Shown here: in pieces, positions 29,900 through 49,539 of the stretch | How the letters are laid out: the number at the start of each line of letters is the position of its first letter | Position numbering within the stretch: the first letter of the stretch is position 1 | Notes under the pieces: generated by a model | The model's input: only the letters and a program-made list of their open reading frames with translations | Databases searched by the model: none | What the model was told of the DNA's origin: nothing | Program-made: the position numbers and the translations under genes | NCBI GenBank assembly: GCA_025355465.1 | Contig: JANXZO010000035.1 | Location: 1 to 49,824 of the forward strand | DNA from: Bacteroidales bacterium | GTDB lineage: Bacteria > Bacteroidota > Bacteroidia > Bacteroidales > FEN-979 | DNA length: 49,824 nt | Direction: 5' to 3'

Positions 29900-31856
29900 C
29901 GAAATAGTGAAATGGCGAAACTGGTTGGTGATCGCGGTTTTCTTCCTTCTACCCTTTGCGCTTAAGGCCCAGAATGATTTCAACTTCAAGCAGGCAGGAT
30001 TGACGAACCTTCGCCAGGGCGATTATATCGGGGCGCTGGCGAACCTCAACAATGCAATACAGCGCGAACCCGGGCTTTCCGAGTTGTACTTCCTCCGGGG
30101 TTATGCAAAATACGGACTTGATGATTTCTTAGGCGCCGAGCGCGATTATACCTTATCCATCGAACTTTCACCCGTGCTGGCAGATGTATTCATCAACCGT
30201 GCCGTGGTGAGGGCGCAGCAGCAGAATTTCCGCGGGGCCATGGATGATTTCGCCAGGGCCCAGGAGCTTTCGCCCGACAACCCCGATATTTATGTAAACC
30301 GGGCACGGACCAACCTCTACCTCAAAAATTATTATGCCTGTATCGTCGATTGCCGCAAAGCCATCGACCTGAAATACCGTCACGAAGGCATCTATATCCT
30401 GAAAGGAACATCCGAGGTTGGGATCAAACGCTACGAGAACGCCATCGATGACTTTCGTATGGCCATATCCATCAACCCGGGCGACCCGAATAGCTTTATC
30501 CAACTGGGATCCACACACCTGGAGCTGAACCAGCCCGACTCCGCCATCCGTTGCTTCAGCCAGGCCATCGTGCTTGATTCGAACAATACCTACGCACTGT
30601 TCAACCGGTCGCTGGCAAGTATCAAGGTCAAGGCGCTGAGTCCGGCCCTTCTGGACCTGAATAAGGTCATCCGCCTCTCGCCCTATAACTCCTATGCCTA
30701 CTTCAACCGGGCGATCGTTTTAAATGACATGAAGGACAAGAAAGGCGCGGTGCGCGATTTCAGTGCCGTGATCAACCTGAACCCCAAAAACATCATCAGT
30801 TATTATTACCGGGGACTGCTGAAAGCCGAACTGAAAGACTACAAAGGAGCGCTGGCAGATCTCGATAAGACCATCGAGCTTTTTCCCGATTATGCCGATG
30901 CCTATTACAGCCGGTTTGAGATAAAAAACAAAACCGGCGACCGGGCAGGTGCCGCAAAAGATTATCAGCGGGCTATGGAGATCGGTGAAAAGAACCACAT
31001 CGATCCGGCTACGCTGGCTCAACAGAAAAATTACCTGGAGAGTCTGGTTAAACTGACCGGCGATTTTGAAGAGATGAACACGCTCAACAGCAAATTCCAG
31101 AATCAGTACATAGACATCCAGCTCATTCCGATGTTCAGCGTATTTCTGGGCAAACTGAATTACGACCAGATAAGCCTTTACGATACCTACCGGAAAGAGC
31201 ACTACTATACCAACATTATCACCTTCACCAACAAGCCTGAACTGCTGAGGGATTCGGTTTGCCGCCGTGAAATTGAAAACCAGACCCGGGTCATCGATTC
31301 GGTTTCCCATAAACCGGAAGCTTACTATAAGCGGGCGATCTCCTGGTCGGCCCTCCGCAATTTCAATAAATCGTTTGCCGATTATGACTCCGTTCTGCGG
31401 CTCGACTCGGCCTTTATCATGGCCTGGTTCAGCCGGGCACAAACAAGGTTCGAGCTTATCCGCCTGCTGCAGTCGCAGGATGAGGCAGGACAGGAGATTT
31501 CGATCGGGAAAGTGAGGCCAAAGATCGAAACGCCGCCAAAAACCAATGAACAGGACCAGTCGTATGAAAAGGTCCTGGCCGACCTGGATATGGCTACCCG
31601 GCTCGATCCGGGATTTCCTTATGCCTTTTTCAACAAAGGATTCGTTCACTGCACCATGGGAAACTACCCGGCCGCCATCGACGATTTCAGCCGTGCCATC
31701 GACTGCCGGGAAAAATTCGCGGAGGCCTATTTTAACCGCGGACTGCTCTATATTCTTGTTAACGATAAGTCGAAGGGATGCGAAGACCTGAGCAGGGCAG
31801 GGGAGTTGGGAATACTGGATGCCTATCGGGTAATGAAAAGGTATTGCTACAAGTGA
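29892..31856 (+). CDS. Large TPR protein at the end of the efflux operon
   Basis: A 654-aa protein with a signal-anchor (WLVIAVFFLLPFALKAQ, about residues 11-28) and at least ten TPR units in two blocks. The first (about 30-385) shows repeated patterns such as 'FLRGYAKYGLDDFLGAERDYTLSIEL', and the second (about 470-645) ends with 'AYFNRGLLYILVNDKSKGCEDLSRA'. A less regular middle part has 'FNDLISLYDTYRKEHYYTNI'-like sequence. It is predicted to be periplasmic or surface-exposed and to act as a scaffold. The start codon lies inside the permease gene (8-bp overlap), so it belongs to the operon. Its stop codon lies within the first unit of an octamer tandem repeat. Confidence 0.85.
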   Translation: MSSEIVKWRNWLVIAVFFLLPFALKAQNDFNFKQAGLTNLRQGDYIGALANLNNAIQREPGLSELYFLRGYAKYGLDDFLGAERDYTLSIELSPVLADVFINRAVVRAQQQNFRGAMDDFARAQELSPDNPDIYVNRARTNLYLKNYYACIVDCRKAIDLKYRHEGIYILKGTSEVGIKRYENAIDDFRMAISINPGDPNSFIQLGSTHLELNQPDSAIRCFSQAIVLDSNNTYALFNRSLASIKVKALSPALLDLNKVIRLSPYNSYAYFNRAIVLNDMKDKKGAVRDFSAVINLNPKNIISYYYRGLLKAELKDYKGALADLDKTIELFPDYADAYYSRFEIKNKTGDRAGAAKDYQRAMEIGEKNHIDPATLAQQKNYLESLVKLTGDFEEMNTLNSKFQNQYIDIQLIPMFSVFLGKLNYDQISLYDTYRKEHYYTNIITFTNKPELLRDSVCRREIENQTRVIDSVSHKPEAYYKRAISWSALRNFNKSFADYDSVLRLDSAFIMAWFSRAQTRFELIRLLQSQDEAGQEISIGKVRPKIETPPKTNEQDQSYEKVLADLDMATRLDPGFPYAFFNKGFVHCTMGNYPAAIDDFSRAIDCREKFAEAYFNRGLLYILVNDKSKGCEDLSRAGELGILDAYRVMKRYCYK

Positions 31857-31893
31857 AATGGTGAAATGGTGAAATGGTGAGATGGTGAAAATG
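31853..31893 (+). repeat. GTGAAATG tandem repeat
   Basis: Three perfect GTGAAATG units (31853-31876), a GTGAGATG unit (31877-31884) and a GTGAAAATG remnant (31885-31893). The stop codon of the TPR gene (TGA 31854-31856) lies in the first unit. A related degenerate octamer run (tagcgaaa, tagtgaaa, tggcgaaa) occurs at 29896-29919, at the start of the same gene. Confidence 0.8.
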
Positions 31894-31972: not shown

Positions 31973-33967
31973 ATGACAGAATTGATTGTTTTAAGTTGGC
32001 TTTTACCACTTTTTGCCGTCGGTTTAATACCCTTTGTTCCATCAAAATATAAACCTTACACAGCGGCTGTTTTTATCCTGCTGGGTTCCCTGGTTTCGGG
32101 ATGGCTTGCCGTTTCCGCCTTGTGCGGAGATGTTACCAATACGACCTTTTATGCCGGGTCTTTCCTGGGAAACGTGGCTGTTCGCATTGATGCACTCTCT
32201 GCCTGGTTCATCCTTATCATAAATTTTACCGCCATTGCGGGAGCTTTCTATGGAACAGGTTACCTGAAAGCTTACCCGGATGATGCGGCCAAAATTTCGT
32301 GGCACTGGTCGCTCTATGTGCTTTTTCATTTTTCGATGGTTTGGGTATGCATGCTGCAGAACGGATTTGCCTTTCTCATTGCCTGGGAGGTCATGTCGCT
32401 GTCGTCGATGATGCTTGTGATATTCGATCATCACAAAATACAAACCCTCAGGGCCGGTTTAAACTACCTGGTTCAGATGCACATCAGCGTCGTTTTGCTC
32501 ACCGTTGGTTTTATCTGGGTCTACAGCCAGACAGGTTCCCTGGATTTCGCCGCCATCGGGACTTTTTTCCGGGGAAATCCCAACACGGGGTTGTTCATGT
32601 TGTTCTTTGCCGGGTTTGGATTTAAGGCAGGATTCGTGCCGCTTCACAGCTGGCTGCCCCACGCACACCCTGCCGCTCCTTCCCATATTTCGGGGGTCAT
32701 GTCGGGCGTTATTGTGAAGCTGGGGATCTACGGCATCATCCGGATGATCAGCTACCTTCACGCAGATTTTATCGTGCTGGGAGAGATCGTTATTTCACTT
32801 TCGGTGCTGACCGGCATCTATGGAATTTTAAATGCTTCGGTGCACCGCGACTTCAAAAAGATGCTCGCCTATTGCACCATCGAGAATATCGGCATTATCG
32901 GCATCGGCATCGGAGTGGGGCTGATCGGCATGGGAACAGGTTCCCCGCTGATGTATTTTCTTGGATTCGGCGGGGCCCTGCTGCATGTCCTGAACCATTC
33001 ACTGTTTAAATCGCTGCTCTTTTTCTCTGCCGGCTCGGTTTATCAGCAGACCCATACACGGGATATGGAAAAACTTGGCGGGCTGATCAAAAGTATGCCG
33101 AAAACAGCGGTCATTTTCCTGGTCGGCGCCATTGCCATCGGAGGGATCCCTCCATTCAACGGGTTCGTGTCGGAATTCCTCATCTATTGCGGACTGATCG
33201 CAGGTATGCAAACCGGCTCCATCTACCTCCTCTTATTAATGATCATGGTTTTGGCGGGACTCAGCGTGATCGGGGGCTTGTCGGTGCTTGCCTTCACAAA
33301 AACTTTTGGTACGGTATTCCTGGGCCAGCCGCGTTCCGTGCTGCCCCACCAACCCCATGAAGTGGCGCCCCTGATGCTGGTGCCGCAATATATTATCATT
33401 GCCCTCATGCTGACCATTGCCGTGGTTCCTCAGTTTTTTCTTCACCTCGTCAATGATGTACTTTCGGGGCTGAGCCCTGTCCTTGCTTTGGACCCGCAGG
33501 TTGCAACAGGCTATTCCAATACCGCCGCCGGTGTTGGAATGTTTTCGCTGTTGCTGATCGCACTCACCGGCATGGTGTGGTTTATCCGCTCCCGGGTGGT
33601 GAAAAACAGAGTGTCTGCCTTCGGAAATACCTGGGGATGCGGTTATGGAAATCCGGACAGGGTCATGCAGTACACCGGCAAATCCTTTTCTAAACCTGTC
33701 GGCAAAACATTTTATTTTCTGCTCTTCGAGAAAAAGGTGTACAAGGAGTTGAAACCGGAGGAGATCTTTCCAGGGCAGAAAAGGTATGATTCACACTATC
33801 TCGATTTTTTTGAATTCAATTTTATCGAACCTTTTACAAAATACCTGATCCGGGGAGCCGGATATTTTCGATTTATCCAAAACGGAAGAACCCAGTCTTA
33901 CGTTATGTATGGCATCTTATTCATTCTGGTCATGTTTCTGTTAACGATGTTTAATATTATCCCATGA
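31973..33967 (+). CDS. HyfB/NuoL-like antiporter subunit (first copy)
   Basis: A 664-aa polytopic membrane protein of the proton-pumping antiporter family. The start at 31973 (MTELIVLSWLL) follows the promoter by about 27 bp. Key pump residues are visible: Glu in 'AFLIAWEVMSLSSMML' (TM5 position) and Lys in 'GFGFKAGFVPLHSWLPHAHPAAPSHISGVMSGVIVKLGIYGIIRM' (TM7/TM8 region). The C-terminal part ends with a tail common to HyfB/HycC ('NTWGCGYGNPDRVMQYTGKSFSKP'). It overlaps the second copy by 4 bp. In the complex it would translocate H+ or Na+ across the inner membrane. Confidence 0.9.
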   Translation: MTELIVLSWLLPLFAVGLIPFVPSKYKPYTAAVFILLGSLVSGWLAVSALCGDVTNTTFYAGSFLGNVAVRIDALSAWFILIINFTAIAGAFYGTGYLKAYPDDAAKISWHWSLYVLFHFSMVWVCMLQNGFAFLIAWEVMSLSSMMLVIFDHHKIQTLRAGLNYLVQMHISVVLLTVGFIWVYSQTGSLDFAAIGTFFRGNPNTGLFMLFFAGFGFKAGFVPLHSWLPHAHPAAPSHISGVMSGVIVKLGIYGIIRMISYLHADFIVLGEIVISLSVLTGIYGILNASVHRDFKKMLAYCTIENIGIIGIGIGVGLIGMGTGSPLMYFLGFGGALLHVLNHSLFKSLLFFSAGSVYQQTHTRDMEKLGGLIKSMPKTAVIFLVGAIAIGGIPPFNGFVSEFLIYCGLIAGMQTGSIYLLLLMIMVLAGLSVIGGLSVLAFTKTFGTVFLGQPRSVLPHQPHEVAPLMLVPQYIIIALMLTIAVVPQFFLHLVNDVLSGLSPVLALDPQVATGYSNTAAGVGMFSLLLIALTGMVWFIRSRVVKNRVSAFGNTWGCGYGNPDRVMQYTGKSFSKPVGKTFYFLLFEKKVYKELKPEEIFPGQKRYDSHYLDFFEFNFIEPFTKYLIRGAGYFRFIQNGRTQSYVMYGILFILVMFLLTMFNIIP

Positions 33968-35991
33968 ATTGGGTGATTGCATTCATACTGACTTGCATCG
34001 CAGGGGTTGTGCTGATCCCATTCGTTCCTGTGAGGTGGAAAGGGTTTATCGTCATCCTGGCGATTTTCCTGAATTCCCTCCTTTCGGGGTACCAGGCAGC
34101 TGCAGCTCTTTTGGGGCAGATGTTCAGCTACACGATGCCGGGAAGTGTGATCACCGGGGCCATCCCCGTGCGGATCGATGCCTTGTCGGGATGGTTCATC
34201 CTGATCGTAAACTTTATTTTTCTCACCGGGGGATGGTACGGCCTCTTTTACATGAATGGCTACAAATACCAGCGTAAAAAGATATCGCTCCATGCCATCG
34301 CCTTCCTGATCCTTCACGCCTCGCTGGTGGCGCTGCTGTCGGTTCAGAACAGTCTGGTTTTTCTAATTGCCTGGGAATTTATGATGTTCTCGGCGTTCAT
34401 CTGTGTGATTTTTGAGCATGAAAAGGAGTCGACCCTCAAAGCCGGCATCAACTACCTCATCCAGTCACACATCTCTGTAGTACTGCTGGTGACCGGCTTT
34501 TTATGGGTGTCGTTCAAAACAGGCAGCTATGATTTTCTGGCGATAACAACATTCAGCAGTTCCCAGCCGGGAGCCGGAGCCATGTTTTTGTTCCTCCTTT
34601 TTTTCGTCGGGTTTGCGATCAAAGCAGGTTTCGTGCCATTTCACACCTGGCTGCCCTATGCCCATCCGGCAGCCCCGGCACATCTGTCGGGCATCATGTC
34701 GGGGGTGTTGATCAAGTGCGGAATATATGGCATACTGAGAATGCTGCTGCTCATTAAAACCGATTATACCACCATCGGGTATATCATCCTTACGGTTTCC
34801 GTTATCTCAGGACTGTATGGTGTCATGCTGGCCATTGTTCAGCACGACCTGAAGCGGTTGCTGGCCTATCACAGTGTCGAAAATATCGGCATCATTGGTC
34901 TGGGGATCGGCATCGGGTGTGTTGGTCTGGGCTCCGGCAGTTATATCGTAGCCTCCCTTGGATTTGCCGGGGCATTGCTGCACACCCTGAATCATGCATT
35001 GTTCAAATCATTGCTTTTTTATGCGGCAGGGATGGTTTACCAGGCAACACACACGCTCAACATTGAGCATCTGGGCGGACTGATAAAAAAAATGCCGCAG
35101 ACCGCGTTCTTCTTTCTGGTAGCGGCCGTGGCAATCTGCGGAATTCCTCCGTTCAATGGTTTTATCTCCGAATTTATCATCTATACCGGCTTGTACCAAT
35201 TGCTGCAGCAGGCCATGCTGGGTTCGCTCATTTTTGTCCTTTTTTTAATCCTGGGGCTGGTGCTGATCGGCGGTTTGGCCATGTTGTGCTTTACCAAGGC
35301 ATTCGGGATCGTATTTCTGGGGAATGCCCGCCGGGAGTTTCACCACGAGATTCAGGAGGGACCCCTCCTTCAGATGGTGCCGCTCGGCCTGATCACCGTT
35401 TTCATGCTGTTTATCGGGTTGTACCCGCAATGGTTTCTCACCATGCTGGAAGGGCCTGTGCGGTTGTTTACCGGAAACCCGGGAGCTGCCGTGCCGCTGT
35501 TCCCCGTTGCGTTCGCCGGCACGCTGGCCCCGTTAAGCTTCGCCACCCTGGGGTTGATATTGCTGATCCTGGCGATCTACTGGATCAGGATCCGGGTGTT
35601 GCGTAACCGCCAAGTATCCTTCGGACTGACCTGGGGATGCGGATATGTTGCACCTACGCCAAAGCTTCAATATACGGCAGGTTCCTTTGTGCGGTCGTAT
35701 GTTAAACTGAATAAACCCACGCTCACCTTCTCGAAGGATGAAAAAGAGGTGATCGGCGTGTTCCCTGCGCATAGCCACTACGAAACCAATGCCTATGATA
35801 AGTTCGAACGATGGCTGATCGACAGACCTGTTAAAGGCTTAAAAAAGTTCCTGACACGGTTTCTGTTTCTTCAGAACGGGAGCCTGCAGTCTTATATCTT
35901 ATACGGGGTACTGTTTATTCTCGGGGTGCTGATCATCCCCATGATATACGACACCCTTTTAATGTTAATTGACTTTTTAAAACGTTTATAG
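33964..35991 (+). CDS. HyfB/NuoL-like antiporter subunit (second copy)
   Basis: A 675-aa paralogue of the preceding subunit with the same order of motifs: 'IPVRIDALSGWFILIVNF', Glu in 'FLIAWEFMMFSAFICV', Lys in 'FAIKAGFVPFHTWLPYAHPAAPAHLSGIMSGVLIKCGIYGILRM', and a 'GLTWGCGYVAPTPKLQYTAGSF' tail. The two copies clearly arose by duplication, but differ along their length, so they are not a recent event. Having two antiporter subunits of this type next to each other suggests a pump with more than one ion path. It starts at the ATGA overlap with the first copy and is followed by the HyfC-like gene after 2 bp. Confidence 0.9.
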   Translation: MNWVIAFILTCIAGVVLIPFVPVRWKGFIVILAIFLNSLLSGYQAAAALLGQMFSYTMPGSVITGAIPVRIDALSGWFILIVNFIFLTGGWYGLFYMNGYKYQRKKISLHAIAFLILHASLVALLSVQNSLVFLIAWEFMMFSAFICVIFEHEKESTLKAGINYLIQSHISVVLLVTGFLWVSFKTGSYDFLAITTFSSSQPGAGAMFLFLLFFVGFAIKAGFVPFHTWLPYAHPAAPAHLSGIMSGVLIKCGIYGILRMLLLIKTDYTTIGYIILTVSVISGLYGVMLAIVQHDLKRLLAYHSVENIGIIGLGIGIGCVGLGSGSYIVASLGFAGALLHTLNHALFKSLLFYAAGMVYQATHTLNIEHLGGLIKKMPQTAFFFLVAAVAICGIPPFNGFISEFIIYTGLYQLLQQAMLGSLIFVLFLILGLVLIGGLAMLCFTKAFGIVFLGNARREFHHEIQEGPLLQMVPLGLITVFMLFIGLYPQWFLTMLEGPVRLFTGNPGAAVPLFPVAFAGTLAPLSFATLGLILLILAIYWIRIRVLRNRQVSFGLTWGCGYVAPTPKLQYTAGSFVRSYVKLNKPTLTFSKDEKEVIGVFPAHSHYETNAYDKFERWLIDRPVKGLKKFLTRFLFLQNGSLQSYILYGVLFILGVLIIPMIYDTLLMLIDFLKRL

Positions 35992-35993
35992 TC

Positions 35994-36899
35994 ATGCTCA
36001 GTTTTTTTCTCATCTTGCTGTCGGCATTCTTTTTTACCGGGGTGATCAATGTTACCAAAAGCATCTATACCGGACGCAAAGGCCCTGGTATCCTTCAGCC
36101 GGTATACGACACCATCCGGCTCTTTAAAAAGGGGTCTGTTTACAGCACGACAACAAGCTTTATTTTTCAAATCGCCCCCACCATTTATTTCTCCACTGTG
36201 GTGATGGCGATGCTGATGGTTCCCTTCGGACAATCGAAAGGGTTGATCAGTTTCAATGGTGATTTTATTTTCTTCGCCTACGTGCTGGCGCTCGGAAAAT
36301 TTTTCAGCATCATTTCGGCCATGGATACCGGCAGCAGTTTTGAAGGCATGGGTGCCAGCCGCGAGGCGCTCTATTCCATGTTTGCAGAGCCGGCATTTTT
36401 CATCCTTCTGGGGTCGATGGCGTTGCTCACCGGACAAACCTCTTTCCAGGAAATTTTTGCCACCCTGCACCTGGGTTCACCCATCAGCTATGCACTGGCC
36501 GTACTTGCTTCCTTTGTTCTTGGAATGATCATGATGATTGAGAACAGCCGGATGCCCATCGATGACCCAAAAACGCACCTTGAGCTGACCATGGTGCATG
36601 AAGTAATGATTTTGGATAACAGCGGGTTCGACCTGGGTCTGATCCAATCGGCCGGGATGCTTAAATTCTCGATCTACGGAGCGCTTATCGTGAATCTGTT
36701 CATCGGCATGTTTCCCTATGGATATACGATTCCGATGTTCTTTGCCATTCAGTTCGGCGCGGCAGTGGTTACCGGAACCATCGAATCGTTCATGGCACGA
36801 TTCAGGATGAGCCACAATGCACAGTTTATTTTTGCCCTGACATCGGTAAGTCTGCTGATATTTTTTGGCGTACTGATGTTACTCGGGAAATTCATTTAA
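35994..36899 (+). CDS. HyfC/NuoH-like membrane subunit
   Basis: A 301-aa protein with about eight membrane segments. It has the NuoH-family features: 'GRKGPGILQPVYDTIRLFKKG' after TM1 (quinone-site or junction loop), 'GSSFEGMGASREALYSMFAEP' and 'MIENSRMPIDDPKTHLELTMVHEVMILDNSG', which carries conserved acidic residues of the cytoplasmic cavity. This subunit joins the soluble arm to the antiporter subunits. All the usual conserved charges appear to be present, so the coupling machinery is probably intact. Confidence 0.9.
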   Translation: MLSFFLILLSAFFFTGVINVTKSIYTGRKGPGILQPVYDTIRLFKKGSVYSTTTSFIFQIAPTIYFSTVVMAMLMVPFGQSKGLISFNGDFIFFAYVLALGKFFSIISAMDTGSSFEGMGASREALYSMFAEPAFFILLGSMALLTGQTSFQEIFATLHLGSPISYALAVLASFVLGMIMMIENSRMPIDDPKTHLELTMVHEVMILDNSGFDLGLIQSAGMLKFSIYGALIVNLFIGMFPYGYTIPMFFAIQFGAAVVTGTIESFMARFRMSHNAQFIFALTSVSLLIFFGVLMLLGKFI

Positions 36900-36916
36900 T
36901 ATAAAAATTGCACGAC

Positions 36917-37546
36917 ATGATAAATGTATTGCTGATCACATTTCTAATCACCCTGTTTTTTGTTGCCATTGCCAACCGGCTTCTCACTTACATCAAAGTC
37001 CTTGCGTTTCAGGGTGTCTTACTTTTTGCCGTGGTATTTATTCAGCTCAACAACATAAATACCTTCAACCTGATCCTCATCCTGATGGAGACCATCTTTT
37101 TCAAATCGATCGCCGTACCGGTATTTCTGGCCTATATCATCAAACACAACAAGATTACCCGGGAAGCGGAGCCCTATCTGCCGCATTTCATCTCGCTGAT
37201 CATCGTTACCATGATCTGCGTTGCCTCCATATTGCTTGTAAACAGCATCAAGGACAACGAGCTGGATAAAATATTTTTTGTCGTTGCGTTGTCTGCCTTA
37301 TTCACCGGCCTCTATTTCATTATTTCCCGACGAAAAATTATCACCCATGTGATGGGTTACCTGATTATCGAAAACGGAATTTTCGTACTGTCGCTCGCCC
37401 TGGGCAGCCAAATGACCATGCTTGTCAACATCGGTATCATGCTCGATGTGTTTGTCAGCGTGCTGGTGCTGGGAATTTTCACCAACCGCATCGGCGACAC
37501 CTTTGAAGCGATGAGCGTCGACAATTTATCAAACCTAAAAGATTAA
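36917..37546 (+). CDS. HyfE-like membrane subunit
   Basis: A 209-aa membrane protein from the ATG at 36917; a TTG at 36908 is possible but less likely. Hydrophobic segments alternate with short loops ('LLITFLITLFFVAIANRLLTYIKVLAFQG', 'ISLIIVTMICVASILLVNSI', 'MGYLIIENGIFVLSLALG'). The last of these, with Glu in 'YLIIENGIF', is the NuoK-like signature that also marks HyfE/HycD-type subunits. It lies between the HyfC- and HyfF-like genes, the same order as in hyf operons. It probably contributes to the ion path. Confidence 0.85.
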   Translation: MINVLLITFLITLFFVAIANRLLTYIKVLAFQGVLLFAVVFIQLNNINTFNLILILMETIFFKSIAVPVFLAYIIKHNKITREAEPYLPHFISLIIVTMICVASILLVNSIKDNELDKIFFVVALSALFTGLYFIISRRKIITHVMGYLIIENGIFVLSLALGSQMTMLVNIGIMLDVFVSVLVLGIFTNRIGDTFEAMSVDNLSNLKD

Positions 37547-37551
37547 TTTCC

Positions 37552-38979
37552 ATGTTCGGATATTACCTGATCATTGTTTTACTCCTTGGAACCGGAACGC
37601 TGATAAACCGCAACGGGCCGATCCGCATTGTGCTGCTGACAATCTTTCTGCTGGTGCAGACGGCCATCGCCCTGTATGGATTTTTTCACATCAACACGGG
37701 CCAGCTCGACGGGAATTTTTATTTCGATTCGCTGGGGGTCATTTTTCTTCTGGTACTGGCCATTTTGAGCTATACCACTGTTCTTCACAGCTACATCTAC
37801 CTTCAGCACCGGAAGGACAGCAGCCGGAATCAAAGCATCTACTTTACGGCCCTGATCGTTTTGATCGGCGGGATGACCAGTGTATATCTTGCGGCTACCA
37901 TCGGTATCATGTGGGTGCTGATCGAGCTTACCACCCTGAGTGTGGCTGTTTTGATCTATCACGAGCGAACAAATCTTTCCCTCGAAGCCACCTGGAAGTA
38001 TGTCTTTATCTGCTCCATCGGCATTACTTTTGCGTTTGTGGGGATTGTATTTCTGAGCAAAGCCCTGCAGGAGGCAAAATCGGTGAACCTCTCTTTCTCC
38101 GACATTCCGAACCATCTGCAAAATGTCAACACCTTCTGGTTAAAGCTTGCCTTTATCTTCATGCTGGTGGGATTCAGCACCAAGATGGGGCTGTTTCCCA
38201 TGCACACCATCGAGGTAGATGCCAACACCGTGGCTCCGCCGCCGATCAGCGCCTTTATCTCCACCGCCTTGCTGAATGTCGGATTTATCGCCATTTTCCG
38301 CACGTACACATTGATGGCCCACACCTCCATCCTCCCCTGGATGAACCACATCCTGCTCTGGAGCGGTTTCCTGTCGCTGTTTGTATCGACAGTCTATATT
38401 CTGAAAGTAAACCATCTGAAACGAATGTTTGCCTATTCCGGACTTGAACACATGGGACTGGTTGCCATTGGCCTTGCTTCGGGAGGGATCGGTTATTTCG
38501 CTGCCATGCTGCACATGGTCCTGCATTCTTTTATCAAGGCGAGTGTTTTTTACCAGATCGACCAGGTTTACCGGGTCTTCGGCACCTTTATCATCAGCAA
38601 AACGGGAAACTATTTCAACAAAAACCTCGCCGGGGCGATGGTCATGCTGCTGCTGTTCGTCAGCGTAACAGCAATACCCCCTTCAGGCATGTTTGTGAGC
38701 GAATTCCTGATCTTCCGTTCGCTGTTCGAAGCCCACAACATCCTGTTATTTATTGTTGTCCTGCTGCTGCTCACGCTGATCATGTGGGCGGTGGGAAAAA
38801 ATATCTTTTCGATGTTGTTCCTGCCGCAGCATGAACAAACCGGCAAATTTGTTAAAATAAGTCCATGGGAGTCTTCCACACAATTTGTTCTTCTCACCCT
38901 GGCAATCTACCTGGGAATCAACCCGCCGCCCTTTTTTCTGCAGTTAATCAACGAGGCTATTCTTGCATTACCCAAGTGA
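37552..38979 (+). CDS. HyfF/NuoN-like antiporter subunit
   Basis: A 475-aa antiporter-like membrane protein. Glu in 'GIMWVLIELTTLSVAVLIYHER' and Lys in 'GFSTKMGLFPMHTIEVDANTVAPPPISAFISTALLNVGF' match the pump residues of the family, and 'LKRMFAYSGLEHMGLVAIGL' is the HyfF-type version of the broken-helix motif. The DNA downstream encodes the HyfG-like subunit after 1 bp. It is the third antiporter-like subunit of the operon. Confidence 0.9.
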   Translation: MFGYYLIIVLLLGTGTLINRNGPIRIVLLTIFLLVQTAIALYGFFHINTGQLDGNFYFDSLGVIFLLVLAILSYTTVLHSYIYLQHRKDSSRNQSIYFTALIVLIGGMTSVYLAATIGIMWVLIELTTLSVAVLIYHERTNLSLEATWKYVFICSIGITFAFVGIVFLSKALQEAKSVNLSFSDIPNHLQNVNTFWLKLAFIFMLVGFSTKMGLFPMHTIEVDANTVAPPPISAFISTALLNVGFIAIFRTYTLMAHTSILPWMNHILLWSGFLSLFVSTVYILKVNHLKRMFAYSGLEHMGLVAIGLASGGIGYFAAMLHMVLHSFIKASVFYQIDQVYRVFGTFIISKTGNYFNKNLAGAMVMLLLFVSVTAIPPSGMFVSEFLIFRSLFEAHNILLFIVVLLLLTLIMWAVGKNIFSMLFLPQHEQTGKFVKISPWESSTQFVLLTLAIYLGINPPPFFLQLINEAILALPK

Positions 38980-38980
38980 T

Positions 38981-40480
38981 ATGAAATATACAACCATCGT
39001 TAATAATCAAACCATACCGGTCTCTCAGATCCCGGAAATTCCCTATGATGCCTTCTTTGAGCTGAATGCCGGATTTGTTACCGATGCGCCGGAACTCCAC
39101 TGTGTAAATTACTTCGGGTATCCGGCGGGTTCAAAGGTAAAGCTGATCTGCTGCATGGCCGATGACCTGCACCATGTGATCCATGTCTCCTCCTGCCAGG
39201 TTCACCCGACAGACCAGCTCCCTTCGCTGGCATCGCAACTCTTTTGTTTCGAGAAATTTGAACGCGAAATTCACGAGAACTTCGGGATCCAGTTCACCGG
39301 TCACCCCTGGCTTAAACCCCTAAGGTATGCACACAACCGGAAAGATCCCGGGCAGACCATCGCAAACTACCCTTTTTACAGCATCCACAGCGAGGAACTA
39401 CATGAGGTAGGGGTCGGTCCGATACATGCCGGGGTGATAGAGCCCGGTCACTTCCGGTTTATCTGCAACGGCGAACAGATCTTACATCTCGAGATTCAGC
39501 TGGGTTACCAGCACCGGGGCATAGAATCGCTGTTTCTCAGCAAAACCAGGTTATCCGAGCGTGTTCAGATCGCCGAAAGCATTGCCGGTGATAATGTGGT
39601 GGCGCATACCCTCGCTTTTGCTGCGGCATGGGAGAGCTTATGCGGCTACAAACCTTCCCCCATGCTCGAATCCGCACGAACGGTGGCCCTTGAACTGGAG
39701 CGCATCGCCATTCATACCGGCGATTTAAGCGCGGCCTGTGCCGATATTGCATACCAGATCGGCAGTGCGGTGTTCGGTCGGCTTCGTACTCCGGTGATCA
39801 ACTTTATGCAGGAGTGGTGCGGAAACCGTCTGGCCAAAGGATTGATAAGACCAGGTACGGATCAATATCCTTTTACCCCGGAGCTGGCTCAGCGGCTTGC
39901 AGAAGTACTGCTCCGCTTTGAGCCCGAATTTATTGAGATGAATACCGAGCTTTTTAAGATGCCAAGCGCCCTTTCCCGTTTTGAGCGCACCGGCACGGTT
40001 TCCCTGGCGAACACCACCGCGATAGGATCGGTTGGATTGGCCGCCCGTGCCAGCGGTTTAAGCAGAGATATCCGTTCATCACATCCTTACGCCGGCTATC
40101 ACACGCTGAAACATGAGCCCATCGTAAAACGTCATGGCGATGTCTATTCCCGCCTTCAGGTGCGTAAACAGGAGGTTCCCCAGTCTATCGGCTATGTGCG
40201 TGAACTCCTGAAAAGTATGGAGACTTCTCAGACTGTCGCAACCCCGCCGGGAACTCCCGCTCCGGGGTCGCTGGTTGTTTCGCTGGTGGAAGGCTGGCGC
40301 GGTGAGATCTGCCACTGCGCTGTTACGGATGCCGGCGGCGAATTGCTGATTTACAAGGTGAAGGATCCCTCCTTTCATAACTGGATGGCGCTGGCCATGG
40401 CGGTGAGGAACAACGAGATCTCGGATTTCCCGATTTGCAACAAGAGTTTTAACCTTTCCTATTGCGGGCACGATCTTTAG
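38981..40480 (+). CDS. HyfG-like large subunit (NuoC-NuoD fusion) without [NiFe] cysteines
   Basis: A 499-aa protein from ATG 38981. Residues 20-130 resemble the NuoC/30-kDa domain ('KFEREIHENFGIQFTGHPWLKPLRY'), and 145-499 the NuoD/hydrogenase large-subunit fold ('GVGPIHAGVIEPGHFRF', 'HLEIQLGYQHRGIESLF'). At the L1 site, where hydrogenases have C-x2-C before a conserved AH, this protein has SIAGDNVVAH (residues 200-209): Ala-202 and Asn-205 replace the two Cys. At the L2 site near the C-terminus it has NLSYCGHDL, with Ser-493 and Gly-496 at the two Cys positions and one Cys shifted by one. It should not bind a [NiFe] center, which fits Ehr complexes. The gene runs straight into the HyfI-like gene. 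Confidence 0.88.
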   Translation: MKYTTIVNNQTIPVSQIPEIPYDAFFELNAGFVTDAPELHCVNYFGYPAGSKVKLICCMADDLHHVIHVSSCQVHPTDQLPSLASQLFCFEKFEREIHENFGIQFTGHPWLKPLRYAHNRKDPGQTIANYPFYSIHSEELHEVGVGPIHAGVIEPGHFRFICNGEQILHLEIQLGYQHRGIESLFLSKTRLSERVQIAESIAGDNVVAHTLAFAAAWESLCGYKPSPMLESARTVALELERIAIHTGDLSAACADIAYQIGSAVFGRLRTPVINFMQEWCGNRLAKGLIRPGTDQYPFTPELAQRLAEVLLRFEPEFIEMNTELFKMPSALSRFERTGTVSLANTTAIGSVGLAARASGLSRDIRSSHPYAGYHTLKHEPIVKRHGDVYSRLQVRKQEVPQSIGYVRELLKSMETSQTVATPPGTPAPGSLVVSLVEGWRGEICHCAVTDAGGELLIYKVKDPSFHNWMALAMAVRNNEISDFPICNKSFNLSYCGHDL

Positions 40481-40500
40481 CCTGCCTAAACAACCCAAGC

Positions 40501-41244
40501 ATGTTAGGTCATATCAAAATACTTTACCACGAGGGAAAACAGTTCATACCGGATGTTACAACAGCCAGGGTGCCGGGCATCTTCAGAGGACGGCCGGTGA
40601 TCAGCAGGACGAAGGCAGACGAAGAGGCGCTGGTTAACATCTGTCCGCTTGGCGCGATCACGGCCAGCCCCGTTCAACTCGATCTGGGGAGATGTTCCTT
40701 TTGCGGTGAATGCGCCCGGCAGTTTCCCGAGAAGATAGAATTTACCACCGACTACATGATCTCCGTCAACGACAGGGAGCGTCTGATCATCACGGAAGGG
40801 GTCAATGAACCGCTGAAGATCAGCCCGGAAAAGGTAAGGAGGGAGATCCCCCGTTTGTTCCGGAAATCGCTCAAGTTAAGAGAGGTTTCGGCGGGTGGCG
40901 ATAACAGCTGCGAGTGGGAACTCAATGCCGCAAACAATGTTCAGTTCGACATGAGCCGCTTTGGCATAGAGTTCGTGGCGTCGCCGCGTCATGCCGATGG
41001 AGTGGTGATCACGGGGCCGGTAACGGAGAACATGGCCGAAGCGCTTCAGATTTGCTACGATGCCATTCCCGACCCTAAAGTTATCATCCTGGCAGGAACG
41101 GATGCCATCAGTGGCGGCATCTTCCGGGACACGCCAGCGATAAACCGCGATTTTTTGAACAGGTATAAGATCGATCTTTACGTGCCGGGAAATCCGATAC
41201 ATCCACTCACTTTTATCAATGGGGTACTGGATCTGATAAAATAA
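40501..41244 (+). CDS. Ferredoxin-HyfI-like small subunit with degenerate proximal cluster
   Basis: A 247-aa protein from ATG 40501. The N-terminal ferredoxin-like part keeps Cys-48 (NICPLGAI) and Cys-65, -68 and -71 (CSFCGEC), which together make one [4Fe-4S] site of a two-cluster ferredoxin. The last Cys of the second site is Phe-75. The C-terminal part is NuoB/HyfI-like (SPRHAD, 'VVITGPVTENM', 'GTDAISGG', 'YVPGNPIHP'). The family's four proximal-cluster Cys lie in CxxC, GxC and GCPP motifs. Here they are Asp-134, Cys-137, Asp-201 and Asn-231, so that cluster is very probably absent. It could still receive electrons through its one ferredoxin cluster. It ends the operon. Confidence 0.88.
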   Translation: MLGHIKILYHEGKQFIPDVTTARVPGIFRGRPVISRTKADEEALVNICPLGAITASPVQLDLGRCSFCGECARQFPEKIEFTTDYMISVNDRERLIITEGVNEPLKISPEKVRREIPRLFRKSLKLREVSAGGDNSCEWELNAANNVQFDMSRFGIEFVASPRHADGVVITGPVTENMAEALQICYDAIPDPKVIILAGTDAISGGIFRDTPAINRDFLNRYKIDLYVPGNPIHPLTFINGVLDLIK

Positions 41245-41280: not shown

Positions 41281-41288
41281 TATCTTTG
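41281..41288 (+). promoter_or_regulatory. -7 element for the small TPR gene
   Basis: TATCTTTG is a perfect TAnnTTTG box. A TTTG at 41252-41255 lies 25 bp upstream, longer than the usual spacer. The start would be near 41295, about 15 bp before the ATG. Confidence 0.5.
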
Positions 41289-41309
41289 ATCCATTCAAAA
41301 GTCTGCCGA

Positions 41310-41858
41310 ATGAAAAAGTCAGCGCTGATCCTCTCTTCACTGTTTTGCAACATCATGTTGTTGATCCCGTTTTTCACGGCTGCACAGACACCCATCGACG
41401 ATTCCATCAGGTATTACTACTATTTTGCCTATGCCCAGACCAATGCGGTGGGTGATAACCGTGAAGCGATAAAGGCCTATACCAAGATCCTGCGTCTCGA
41501 TCCGAAAGATGATGAGGCCCTGATGATGCGGGCAAAGAACAAACGGGCCATCGGCGATTACGCCGGCGCCGGGAATGATTACACGCGTGTTTTGCAACTT
41601 GATCCCGGCAGCATTGCCGCTATTGCCGCCAGGTCGGAATGCAGTGCGATCCTTAAAAAATATGCCGATGCAATCCGCGACAATAATCTGCTTATCTCCA
41701 TGGAGCCAGGCAATCCATCGTATTACACCAACCGTGGATTGAACAAAGTACAGCTCAACGACATCCAGGGAGCCTGCGATGATTTTGAAAAGGCGAAGTT
41801 CCTGGGCGGCGTCTATGCTGCCGTGCTGATCCGGCAATTTTGTCTGGAGCTTTATTGA
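41310..41858 (+). CDS. Exported TPR protein
   Basis: A 182-aa protein from ATG 41310 with a signal peptide (MKKSALILSSLFCNIMLLIPFFTAAQ). About three TPR units follow: 'REAIKAYTKILRLDPKDDEALMMRA', 'AGAGNDYTRVLQLDPGSIAAIAA' and 'ADAIRDNNLLISMEPGNPSYYTNRGLNKVQLNDIQGACDDFEKA'. It is likely to lie in the periplasm and bind a partner protein. It resembles the repeats of the larger TPR protein at 29892-31856. It has its own promoter and is 65 bp from the end of the Ehr-like operon; a link between the two is not shown. Confidence 0.75.
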   Translation: MKKSALILSSLFCNIMLLIPFFTAAQTPIDDSIRYYYYFAYAQTNAVGDNREAIKAYTKILRLDPKDDEALMMRAKNKRAIGDYAGAGNDYTRVLQLDPGSIAAIAARSECSAILKKYADAIRDNNLLISMEPGNPSYYTNRGLNKVQLNDIQGACDDFEKAKFLGGVYAAVLIRQFCLELY

Positions 41859-41918: not shown

Positions 41919-43847
41919 ATGAAAATATTGCTTATCAGTCCGGGAACGGCCGATGACATCGATGGAAAAATAACGCGTGAAATTCCTTATCTTTTTGCAA
42001 AAACCCTCTTTGCGCCACATGCCGTAGCTGCGGTAGCCGCACTTACGCCGGCCGGCTACGAAGTGGAAATACACGATGAATATGCCCGCGGACCGGCCGA
42101 CCCGGTTCTTCAAAAGAACGGGCACGACATCATCGGAATCTCTATCACCTCCAACCAGCTCAAACGGTCGTTGCACCTTGCGAACGTCGCTAAAAAAAGC
42201 AATCCGAAAGCGTTGGTGGTAGTCGGAGGCATCGGTGTTGAGCACCTCGTCTCCAAAAATCCGGAGGATATCGACGTGGTTTTTCATGGAGAGGCCGAGG
42301 AGACCTGGCCGGTTTTTCTGGAGGATCTAAAACGGGGTAAATGGCTTCCGGTGTACAAGCACCACTCCAAACCCGACATGACGAAAACCCCGCCGCCGCG
42401 CTGGGAGCTGATGAAAGCCGACCTCTCGGCGTATACGGCAGCGCTGGTGCAGACCACCCGGGGCTGTCCGTTCGATTGCAGTTTCTGCGATGTGATCTAT
42501 ACCTACGGACGGAAACCCCGGAGCAAGACCATCCCCCAGGTGCTGGAAGAGGTAAAGCGGCTCAGCGCCTTGAATACCACCATGATCTTCATTGCCGACG
42601 ACAATTTCGCCGGAGATAAAAAATACACCAAAGCCCTGCTCAGGGAACTCATCCCGCTGAACAATTCATTTGCCGTGCCGATCGGATTCCTTACGCAGAT
42701 CGATATCACCATTGCCGGCGATGAGGAGTTGCTGAAATTGCTGGCCGATTGCAACTTTCAGGCGGTCATGATCGGCATCGAGTCGGTGAATGAAGAGTCG
42801 CTGAAGGACCTCAACAAGCAGCAGAACCTGCGTATTTCGGTCACTGAGGCCGTCCGCACAATACAGTCGTATGGCATTGTGGTGCTGGCGCATATGATCA
42901 TCGGCGCCGATTCCGACGACAACACGGTATTTGAGAAAACCGCTGCCTTTATCGCCGAAGCCAATATCGTACACCACCTCTGCCATCCGCTGGCGGCTCC
43001 CTACGGAACAAAAATGTGGTACGACCTGAAGCGCAAAGGACGGATCATCTCCACCGAAAACGAGGAGATCAGCGACAAGCTCGACATCGTTACCAACATC
43101 ATCCCGAAACAGATGACCCGCGTGGCGCTGTTCGAAGGACTGGCCGGTTACTGGGAAGATATCTACAGCCTGGAGAAGTTTAAACATCGGGCGCTCTCTT
43201 TTATTAAGGACATAAAGTATAAGGCGAAAGTAAAATCTCCCGGGATCACGGCCCTCTGGACACAGCGGAAAATGCTGTCGCGCGTTTTTACCTTTTTCAT
43301 GTTCGAAATGGGCCGGGAGCACCGAAAGACATTCTTTACCATACTCCTGGCTGCAGGGTGGAAAGGGATGTACCTGCTTCCCAAGATCATCTACATTTAC
43401 AGCTGCTACCTGGTCGATTCCAAAAGGTCGCTGCACGATGCAGGGGTTGCCCGGGAACATGCAAAATGGGAGCGTGAAAATGCCGGCAAGATCATGGTCG
43501 ACACCACGGTGATCCCTGTTTCGGAAAAGATCCGGGCCGAAGCATCACCCCTGTTCACGGCGGCATACCAGCACTGCAGGTTGAAGTTTTCGAAAAAGGA
43601 GGGACTGTATGCCGCGGTAATCACCGCCATGGTAGATTTTAACGACCGGTTTGGAAATACATTTGAAACGTATGATGATTTCCAGAAGGAGAATCTGAAA
43701 AATTGCTGCGACCGGATCATCGCGCAGCTGGTTGAAAGCGAAGCCGACGATTCCCCTGACCTTCCGCTCACTCCTCCGCCGGGATTCGTGCGCGAAATAC
43801 TCGATGCCCTCGACAACGCTGTTCGCTACCGGAACATGAACAATTGA
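41919..43847 (+). CDS. B12-binding radical SAM protein
   Basis: A 642-aa protein. Residues 1-150 form a cobalamin-binding-like Rossmann domain ('MKILLISPGTADDIDGKITREIPYLF', 'VVGGIGVEHL', 'VFHGEAEETW'), without the DxHxxG histidine, as in many radical SAM/B12 enzymes. The radical SAM core starts at 'TTRGCPFDCSFCDV' (Cys-183, -187, -190, the CxxxCxxC cluster ligand) and includes 'MIFIADDNFAGD' and 'VMIGIESVNEESL'. A long C-terminal extension (about 430-642) resembles DUF4070. Substrates of such enzymes include hopanoids, lipids and tetrapyrroles. It precedes the GT87-like gene by 14 bp, which is consistent with a lipid or envelope role, but this is inference. Confidence 0.85.
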   Translation: MKILLISPGTADDIDGKITREIPYLFAKTLFAPHAVAAVAALTPAGYEVEIHDEYARGPADPVLQKNGHDIIGISITSNQLKRSLHLANVAKKSNPKALVVVGGIGVEHLVSKNPEDIDVVFHGEAEETWPVFLEDLKRGKWLPVYKHHSKPDMTKTPPPRWELMKADLSAYTAALVQTTRGCPFDCSFCDVIYTYGRKPRSKTIPQVLEEVKRLSALNTTMIFIADDNFAGDKKYTKALLRELIPLNNSFAVPIGFLTQIDITIAGDEELLKLLADCNFQAVMIGIESVNEESLKDLNKQQNLRISVTEAVRTIQSYGIVVLAHMIIGADSDDNTVFEKTAAFIAEANIVHHLCHPLAAPYGTKMWYDLKRKGRIISTENEEISDKLDIVTNIIPKQMTRVALFEGLAGYWEDIYSLEKFKHRALSFIKDIKYKAKVKSPGITALWTQRKMLSRVFTFFMFEMGREHRKTFFTILLAAGWKGMYLLPKIIYIYSCYLVDSKRSLHDAGVAREHAKWERENAGKIMVDTTVIPVSEKIRAEASPLFTAAYQHCRLKFSKKEGLYAAVITAMVDFNDRFGNTFETYDDFQKENLKNCCDRIIAQLVESEADDSPDLPLTPPPGFVREILDALDNAVRYRNMNN

Positions 43848-48795: not shown

Positions 48796-49539
48796 TTATT
48801 CAAGGAACATGACAACACCGGTTTTAAGCTCATAAAGCGCCCCAACAATCTTGATCTCCCCTTTTAATGCCATCTCCTTCAGGATCGGGCTTTGCGCTTT
48901 TATCTGGTTGATCGAAACCATGACGTTGTTCAGACACACTTCATCGAGGTACCGGTCATTTTTCACAGATTTATCGCCATCGAAATTCGACGATCTGTCC
49001 AGCGCGGGTTTGATTTTCTGAAGCAGGCCGGTGATGTTGCCCAGCTTAACATTGTTTATGGCCGCCTTCACCGCGCCGCAATGGTGGTGTCCCATCACGA
49101 TGATCAATTTCGCCCCCGACTCTTTGCAGGCATACTCCATGCTCCCCAGGATATCCTTGTCGATGATGTTTCCCGCCACCCTGATCACGAACAGATCGCC
49201 GATACTCTTGTCGAAGATATATTCGGGAGGAACCCGGCTGTCCATGCAGGAAAGGATCACTGCTTCGGGATACTGACCATCAGCACTTTTTCTTACCTGG
49301 TCCGGAAAATTATAATGCGTCAGCCTGTTTGCGATGAACCGCTTGTTGCCCTCCTTGAATGCGATGAGCACCTTGCCGGGGGTAAGAGCAGCCTGTTCCG
49401 CCGCGGTTATCACATGTGCCGCCAGGGCCGAATCAGGTTCGGGAGTTGCTGAACGCTGTTGGGTCTCCGGTTTGTTGCAGTTACAGGAGCTTAGCAGAAG
49501 CGCTCCTGAAAAAAGTGTAAATAGGATCAGGTGTTTCAT
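48796..49539 (-). CDS. Beta-class carbonic anhydrase, lipoprotein
   Basis: A 247-aa protein with a lipoprotein signal (MKHLILFTLFSGALLLSSC, Cys-19) and a polar linker (about 20-50). The beta-CA zinc motifs are complete: SCMDSR (Cys-98, Asp-100, Arg-102) and HHHC (His-151, Cys-154). 'GDLFVIRVAGNI' and 'SMEYACKESGAKLIIVMGHHHCGAVKAA' are typical of the family. It catalyses CO2 + H2O to bicarbonate + H+. The lipid anchor predicts a location in the periplasm or on the outer membrane, unlike the usual cytosolic beta enzyme. It lies upstream of the secreted hydrolase on the same strand. Confidence 0.92.
   Translation of the reverse strand: MKHLILFTLFSGALLLSSCNCNKPETQQRSATPEPDSALAAHVITAAEQAALTPGKVLIAFKEGNKRFIANRLTHYNFPDQVRKSADGQYPEAVILSCMDSRVPPEYIFDKSIGDLFVIRVAGNIIDKDILGSMEYACKESGAKLIIVMGHHHCGAVKAAINNVKLGNITGLLQKIKPALDRSSNFDGDKSVKNDRYLDEVCLNNVMVSINQIKAQSPILKEMALKGEIKIVGALYELKTGVVMFLE

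Follow-up and report, generated by a model that had tools for sequence, protein, structure and literature searches.

An energy-converting-hydrogenase-related complex without [NiFe] and N2 ligands in a Bacteroidales bacterium and its relatives

What drives a relative of the proton pump complex I that has kept its pump parts, when across a whole branch of bacteria the catalytic metal site and the final step of the electron path are gone? How redox chemistry near the iron-sulfur cluster N2 drives distant pumping has yet to be explained for complex I and related complexes, and for the MBS sulfane sulfur reductase the authors state, in the excerpt available, that the coupling of redox chemistry to ion pumping is not clear (PMC7684303). 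Here the question is raised by seven genes at positions 31973-41244 of a 49,824-nt stretch of a Bacteroidales bacterium (contig JANXZO010000035.1; this whole stretch is called the window below). They encode an energy-converting-hydrogenase-related (Ehr) complex, a relative of group 4 hydrogenases and complex I, and this identity is secure. Judged from its sequences, the complex belongs to a known Ehr kind with a newly seen variation, the loss of the N2 (proximal) cluster ligands, which is wider than one odd locus. In the openly accessible literature, mostly in the form of listings, we found no published description of N2 or proximal-cluster loss in Ehr.

The locus and its missing ligands

The seven open frames lie on the forward strand in a hyf-like order, and their Pfam and NCBIfam families bear out the original prediction, made from the sequence alone, of a hyf/complex I gene order (Table 1). 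None of the NCBIfam matches listed for the seven frames reaches its curated cut-off, as expected for a divergent gene set. NuoL-like, HyfC/NuoH-like, HyfE-like, HyfF-like, large and small subunits are all present; the large subunit (EhrL, below L) is a group 4 hydrogenase relative without CxxC pairs, as in the available parts of two Ehr reports (PMC10284858, PMC6349859); and in a tree of L sequences it groups with a Geobacter Ehr, apart from HyfG. The locus was thus rightly predicted to be an Ehr-type complex without [NiFe] ligands. The two [NiFe]-binding CxxC pairs of a group 4 hydrogenase are absent from the window, as are the N2 site in NuoB together with the quinone-site His and Tyr in NuoD that mark respiratory complex I, and of the three Cys that hold the proximal cluster in the available description of MBS one remains. 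An intact N2 site, which is to our knowledge not a stated criterion for the Ehr family and is kept in 58 of 118 small subunits, is also missing.

At the four N2 ligand positions of NuoB (P1-P4), the small subunit of the window (EhrS, below S) carries D134, C137, D201 and N231, encoded by GAT, TGC, GAT and AAT. The predicted exchange of three of the four proximal Cys for Asp, Asp and Asn is therefore real, and it sets this protein apart from most Ehr small subunits outside its group. S is a ferredoxin-NuoB fusion, a feature beyond the original prediction. Its NuoB half matches the profile of MbhJ first and that of HycG second (E-value 6e-37), and its ferredoxin half matches HycF (E 6e-16). An AlphaFold2 model of S has a mean pLDDT (predicted local distance difference test score) of 95.2; a Foldseek search with it puts HycG and MbhJ on top, and the 50 matches listed are chains of the NuoB/HycG/MbhJ type, so that the ferredoxin half is matched by sequence profile only. 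Among 61 rows with a lost N2 site, 59 carry Asp or Glu at P1 and 58 carry Asn at P4; P2 is widely variable, and six rows have Ala at P3.

In two-cluster ferredoxins, the fourth Cys of motif I and the first three Cys of motif II bind one cluster, and the remaining four Cys bind the second. In the ferredoxin half of S, motif I is reduced to its fourth Cys (C48) and motif II to its first three (C65, C68 and C71), and because of these pairings one cluster site is complete and the other absent. The four residues are invariant in an alignment of 72 sequences, and the motif reads CCCC in 121 of 121 distinct fused S rows. Thus the predicted removal of the metal sites applies to the [NiFe] and N2 ligands; one ferredoxin [4Fe-4S] motif has been kept throughout. 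The motif Cys of Escherichia coli NuoI are residues 60, 63, 66, 70 and 99, 102, 105, 109. A table in PMC8357420 places NuoI Cys74 near N6b, with a numbering offset of 17 to sheep, and Cys126 is given as a ligand of N6a in the accessible part of PMC9783039. By this offset Cys126 would be the fourth Cys of motif II, so the site kept in S is presumably the N6b-like one, which adjoins N2.

In L, the two Cys pairs aligned to those of E. coli HyfG read A-G-D-N (202-205) and S-Y-C-G (493-496), again as predicted. No full [NiFe] pair occurs in any of 43 N2-lost and 48 N2-intact L rows: the first Cys of the N-terminal pair is left in 1/43 and 6/48, respectively, and no row has the second; at the C-terminal ligand positions all 91 rows carry Ser and Gly. 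C495, the Cys of NLSYCGHDL, lies between these two C-terminal positions. Ile153 and Gly203 align with a His and a Tyr of NuoD, which we take to be quinone-site residues. Six Cys are common in L of the N2-lost group (C41 in 41/43, C162 in 42/43, C253 in 40/43, C444 in 38/43, C280 in 36/43 and C495 in 35/43), and in the sequence alignment of this group none of them forms a CxxC at the old ligand positions, so the possibility that other Cys fill the [NiFe] site, raised with the original prediction, finds no support there. C162, C280 and C495 are just as common in N2-intact rows, whereas C41 (1/48) and C253 (2/48) are typical of the N2-lost group; C41 is already present in the N2-intact locus L125, and C253 is missing from L125, L059 and L076. 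The region of about residues 141-160 (largely) and the C-terminal tail are invariant in both types. The closest solved relative of L is formate hydrogenlyase subunit 5 (HycE, E 2e-63).

The pump subunits had been predicted to keep their Glu and Lys residues, and this holds for all three antiporter-like subunits and for the aligned members of the group. Each has a Glu, two Lys and a second Glu in helices that we take to be transmembrane helices TM5, TM7, TM8 and TM12. In EhrA1 (E139, K218, K346, E401) they are found in 16/16 aligned group rows and in EhrA2 (E138, K220, K348, E403) in 18/18; in EhrD, E125 and K211 are found in 30/30 and K329 and E384 in 32/32 group rows with letters, two rows being gapped at two sites. 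The membrane anchor EhrB has R123, E132, E197 and E203 in 24/24 rows and D190 in 23/24.

Table 1. Genes and ligand sites of the Ehr locus in the window
Feature	Positions	Strand	Evidence
EhrA1, HyfB-like antiporter-type membrane subunit, 664 aa	31973-33967	+	PF00361 E 9e-55; NCBIfam hydrogenase 4 subunit B E 2e-151, below cut-off
EhrA2, second HyfB-like antiporter-type subunit, 675 aa	33964-35991	+	PF00361 E 4e-54
EhrB, HyfC/NuoH-like membrane anchor, 301 aa	35994-36899	+	PF00146 E 1e-33
EhrC, HyfE-like membrane subunit; start codon uncertain (TTG upstream at 36908)	36917-37546	+	PF00420 below threshold; NCBIfam hydrogenase 4 membrane subunit E 2e-22, below cut-off
EhrD, HyfF-like antiporter-type subunit, 475 aa	37552-38979	+	PF00361 E 3e-41
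EhrL (L), fused NuoC-NuoD large subunit without [NiFe] Cys pairs, 499 aa	38981-40480	+	PF00346, PF00329
N-terminal [NiFe] CxxC position, now A202-G-D-N205 in L	39584-39595	+	Alignment to E. coli HyfG
C-terminal [NiFe] CxxC position, now S493-Y-C-G496 in L	40457-40468	+	Alignment to E. coli HyfG
EhrS (S), fused ferredoxin-NuoB small subunit, 247 aa	40501-41244	+	PF01058 E 2e-20; Fer4 below threshold; ATG start at 40501
Retained ferredoxin [4Fe-4S] motif of S: C48 (motif I Cys4) and C65, C68, C71 (motif II Cys1-3)	40642-40713	+	Alignment
Degenerate N2/proximal site of S: D134 (40900-40902), C137 (40909-40911), D201 (41101-41103), N231 (41191-41193)	40900-41193	+	Alignment to four-Cys S rows; codons

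Spread of the N2 loss and order of events

The trait is group-wide, which the original prediction had not foreseen. Our alignment of S holds 127 rows (125 distinct), including copies from split operons and from a phylum sample; four rows without a fused S were set aside from the 125 (three unfused NuoB-type proteins and one fragment). N2 is readable in 118 distinct S: it is lost in 59 through 14 different residue combinations, intact in 58 and intermediate in one. The 59 are made up of the window, 24 relatives, 28 loci from named genomes, five later copies and Allomeiothermus, the named-genome scan having returned 80 loci as the best 80 of at least 568 relatives. Within the same order, N2 is lost in 24 of the 24 loci with all four sites readable; one further locus (L033) ends after two lost sites and another (L023) stops short of the N2 sites. 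The residues Asp, Cys, Asp, Asn (DCDN) of the window recur in a total of 32 distinct S rows, itself included. Together, these two counts refute a sequencing or assembly error in the window contig as the cause of the missing motifs, an explanation to which we now give practically no probability. Carriers are also known from named-strain records other than metagenome-assembled genomes (MAGs), namely Ancylomarina sp. 16SWW S1-10-2 and Allomeiothermus silvanus DSM 9946.

A search with L gave a match in 54 of the genomes of 61 relatives (own included), and the 30 matches with E no higher than 2e-80 we read as Ehr. In the phylum sample, 17/395 genomes gave an S-like match with E no higher than 1e-30; among the 16 S besides that of the window, DCDN occurs once and CCCC 15 times (two of the latter matched by the NuoB half only), which indicates that intact N2 sites are common in the same phylum and that their loss is not universal there. 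By pattern match, both ferredoxin clusters are complete in 1/59 N2-lost and 30/58 N2-intact rows. In a Variovorax plasmid Ehr (L036), S is fused in the same way and none of its Cys is missing.

Several loci deserve mention in their own right. The intermediate S, from an Opitutaceae genome (L115), has C, A, C and W at the N2 positions and is possibly a third beginning of N2 loss. A MAG titled Phycisphaerae (L066) has an Ehr of the N2-lost kind that falls within the Bacteroidota-type group, either by transfer or by contamination of the bin. One relative (G014) has two different Ehr L genes, on contigs C10 and C23, that are 78% and 53% identical to L of the window, and the Variovorax plasmid bears two different Ehr-type operons a few kb apart, with a fused and an unfused small subunit.

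The tree of L is independent of the sites in S. It places 43 of 44 N2-lost rows in one Bacteroidota-type group and one, Allomeiothermus, outside. With three unlabelled rows the group numbers 46 (support 85 in the Shimodaira-Hasegawa-like approximate likelihood ratio test, SH-aLRT); with its sister L125 it numbers 47 (SH-aLRT 100), and the labelled states need two changes. An earlier L tree without the phylum sample had a group of 48 rows with support 100. L of the window and that of Geobacter argillaceus (L110) share a group of 95 rows (SH-aLRT 99). S of Allomeiothermus (L037) reads TDES at N2. A single loss that includes this lineage was rejected (approximately unbiased test, p-AU 0.0005, at a cost of 64.5 log units), with the caveat that L037 sits on a long branch. 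The Allomeiothermus silvanus plasmid pMESIL01 has two copies of the Ehr operon, together with much of the DNA around it (L037, L167), and both have the same S protein accession.

Two loci show how the complex was dismantled. In the sister L125, none of the four N2 Cys is missing and both ferredoxin motifs are present, yet its L already has the residues of the group (H40, C41, Y44, Q259, Q277, W279 and H368); L060 has DDHS at N2, yet both of its ferredoxin clusters are present. The dismantling was thus stepwise, and the simplest order is a change in L, then the loss of N2, then that of the outer ferredoxin cluster. Since the support for the branch that sets L125 apart is 85, L125 may belong within the group, in which case N2 was lost there more than once. 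Both loci are intermediates for stepwise tests. The HyfB-type gene, also beyond what had been predicted, is doubled in 10/20 group loci against 4/28 others (loci with enough upstream sequence). All doubled group loci belong to the subgroup of the window on the L tree, in which L051, L064 and L065 have one such gene; as the doubling is confined to this subgroup, the pump subunit was most simply gained after N2 loss. Directly upstream of the operon in L047, a divergent second HyfB-HyfC-like pair is found (positions 1-2917).

In four loci S does not follow L, although the sequence continues beyond L for 10 kb (L076), 1.2 kb (L072), 1.3 kb (L056) and 0.3 kb (L059). A complete loss of S was ruled out for all four: S is located elsewhere in each genome, with N2 lost and the ferredoxin motif kept, and thus the operons are split. 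Three further genomes have no bearing on S loss, two of them (L074, L064) with just a NuoB-like match or a 21-residue fragment and one (L055) with an S fragment whose last two N2 positions are D and N. No donor, acceptor or other partner gene recurs beside the seven in the flanks examined (more than 3.5 kb beyond L in 22/36 group loci). The genome of the window has two more NuoB genes with the canonical four Cys; they belong to two complex I-like clusters, both located on contig C52.

What may drive the complex

A natural complex that lacks N2 but retains its antiporter residues and a large part of the L interface separates the redox half from the pumping half. We favour a reading that we regard as plausible, though short of probable, in which the peripheral arm of this Ehr variant no longer carries electrons to L and the membrane part is a gated cation/proton transporter, either redox-gated or redox-blind. 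The usual Fe-S route from the retained ferredoxin cluster to the L cavity would be absent, so that no redox reaction would take place at L. The membrane arm, with three antiporter-like subunits and a NuoH-like anchor, would act as a secondary cation/proton transporter with a mechanism akin to that of Mrp antiporters; the S-L arm would be its gate, and the single retained [4Fe-4S] cluster would serve as a redox sensor or structural pin that sets this gate open or closed. Consistent with this, N2 is lost in half of the readable S, yet the retained ferredoxin motif is complete in all fused ones and the antiporter residues are invariant; L, which has neither [NiFe] pairs nor the quinone-site His and Tyr, changed before N2 was lost, as seen in L125; HyfB is doubled; S is present in all four split genomes; no donor or acceptor gene recurs; and the own genome keeps four-Cys NuoB. 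Several points weigh against it. P2 is still Cys in 33/61 N2-lost rows, and 28/58 N2-intact rows also lack the full motif of the other ferredoxin cluster, which is therefore not specific to the group. The absent Fe-S ligands are compatible with another cofactor or a bound carrier, the N6b-like position of the kept cluster is derived from the available parts of PMC9783039 and PMC8357420, and the invariant L stretch and C-terminal tail in both types are as for a site that still works.

The complex might instead have remained a redox-driven ion pump, in which electrons would enter at the retained cluster and travel, through a cofactor other than Fe-S or a docked partner protein encoded elsewhere, to a substrate within or close to L. 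We consider this rather unlikely, but it accounts for the complete motif in every fused S, for the near-fixed P1 and P4, which indicate that the old N2 site is still constrained, and for the two group-typical Cys of L, C41 and C253. It fits less well with the variable P2 and the occasional Ala at P3, which are unlike one metal site, with C41 in a locus whose N2 is intact and C253 missing from three loci, and with the lack of a recurring neighbour gene in the flanks examined. The retained cluster could also be the reaction centre itself: soluble carriers would pass electrons to and from it at the surface of S, and its redox state would move the interface loops that drive the pumps. Carriers may indeed dock directly, given that the other ferredoxin cluster is incomplete in many N2-intact rows too, and the region of L at about 141-160 is largely invariant in both types; such a scheme, however, requires a net reaction of two soluble partners, none of which is encoded in the flanks examined, and the energy of each cycle would have to feed several putative translocation sites. 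We regard it as improbable.

Quite improbable, too, is that the peripheral arm has become an inert assembly scaffold or that the complex is decaying. The stepwise loss of ligands and the wide variation of P2 would agree with this, but the four Cys of one cluster are kept without exception, the antiporter residues are invariant and P1 and P4 nearly fixed. The mean top-residue frequency in S (0.71 for N2-lost against 0.60 for N2-intact rows) also argues against decay, albeit weakly, since the intact set spans more phyla. Extended to the whole group, the gated-transporter reading would mean that one branch of the complex I superfamily has lost its coupling to electron transfer: a complete hydrogenase-like complex with up to three antiporter-like subunits would be a secondary ion transporter, switched by the redox state of one [4Fe-4S] cluster, that arose stepwise from a redox pump (change of L, loss of N2, loss of the outer ferredoxin cluster, doubling of a pump subunit in one subgroup), with a separate N2 loss in Allomeiothermus. 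This extended claim is the more doubtful one.

Surroundings and comparison with known systems

When neighbouring genes were clustered, one family was shared by three group loci (L044, L067 and the window, more than 8 kb away), and all others by pairs only. In the window, a short tandem repeat (tggtgaaa-like, seen by eye) lies at 31853-31893 in the gap before the operon; downstream follow a small TPR protein (41286-41858), a B12-binding radical SAM protein with DUF4070 (41919-43847, forward strand) and, about 7.5 kb away, a carbonic anhydrase (48796-49539, reverse strand; PF00484 E 3e-43), which is not among the recurring neighbours. The genome also encodes a protein that, by eye, resembles the small subunit of a [NiFe] hydrogenase exported by the twin-arginine (Tat) pathway. 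Among the 61 relatives, RnfC is rarer with Ehr (4/30 vs 18/31, p 0.0004); split by kinship, the picture is not clear (own family 0/24 vs 2/13; rest of the order 4/6 vs 16/18). COX1 is commoner with Ehr (27/30 vs 17/31; own family 24/24 vs 9/13, p 0.011), with no excess in the rest of the order (3/6 vs 8/18), and FeFe hydrogenase and cytochrome bd show no co-occurrence pattern in these 61. Because of the twelve tests made and the confounding by kinship, we do not use these results as evidence.

Published Ehr complexes are among the closest known systems. Reports on them, in the parts available, note that the [NiFe] ligands are absent and either leave the function undecided or suggest a formate dehydrogenase as partner (PMC10284858, PMC6349859, PMC7304191). 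The seven-gene cluster GSU0739-45 of Geobacter sulfurreducens encodes, according to the accessible part of PMC7894505, a NuoL-like EhrA-1, a HyfE-like EhrC, EhrL and EhrS, and all its subunits are more abundant on formate than with hydrogen. G. argillaceus L110 matches the window in the order of A, B, C, D, L and S, but it has one HyfB-type gene instead of two and all four N2 Cys in S instead of one. The E. coli formate hydrogenlyase and hydrogenase 4 share the hyf-like gene order, HycE as the closest solved relative of L, HycF as that of the ferredoxin half of S and HycG as second to MbhJ for the NuoB half. They differ in the CxxC pairs, both of which are present in HyfG, in the N2-type Cys, of which HyfI has all four, and in that ferredoxin and small subunit are separate genes.

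Pyrococcus MBS is likewise a complex I relative without [NiFe], there with two antiporter-like pump subunits, but in the available text its catalysis requires a proximal [4Fe-4S] cluster on three Cys (PMC7684303). As MBS relies on this cluster, its chemistry cannot apply unchanged to the window complex, whose S has one such Cys. With respiratory complex I the window shares a homologous core of NuoD, NuoB, NuoI and NuoH and the antiporter-like subunits, whereas the N2 ligands are missing and Ile153 and Gly203 stand in place of the quinone-site His and Tyr. Mrp-type cation/proton antiporters, finally, have homologous antiporter-like subunits; in the window, unlike in Mrp, these subunits are joined to a hydrogenase-like peripheral arm.

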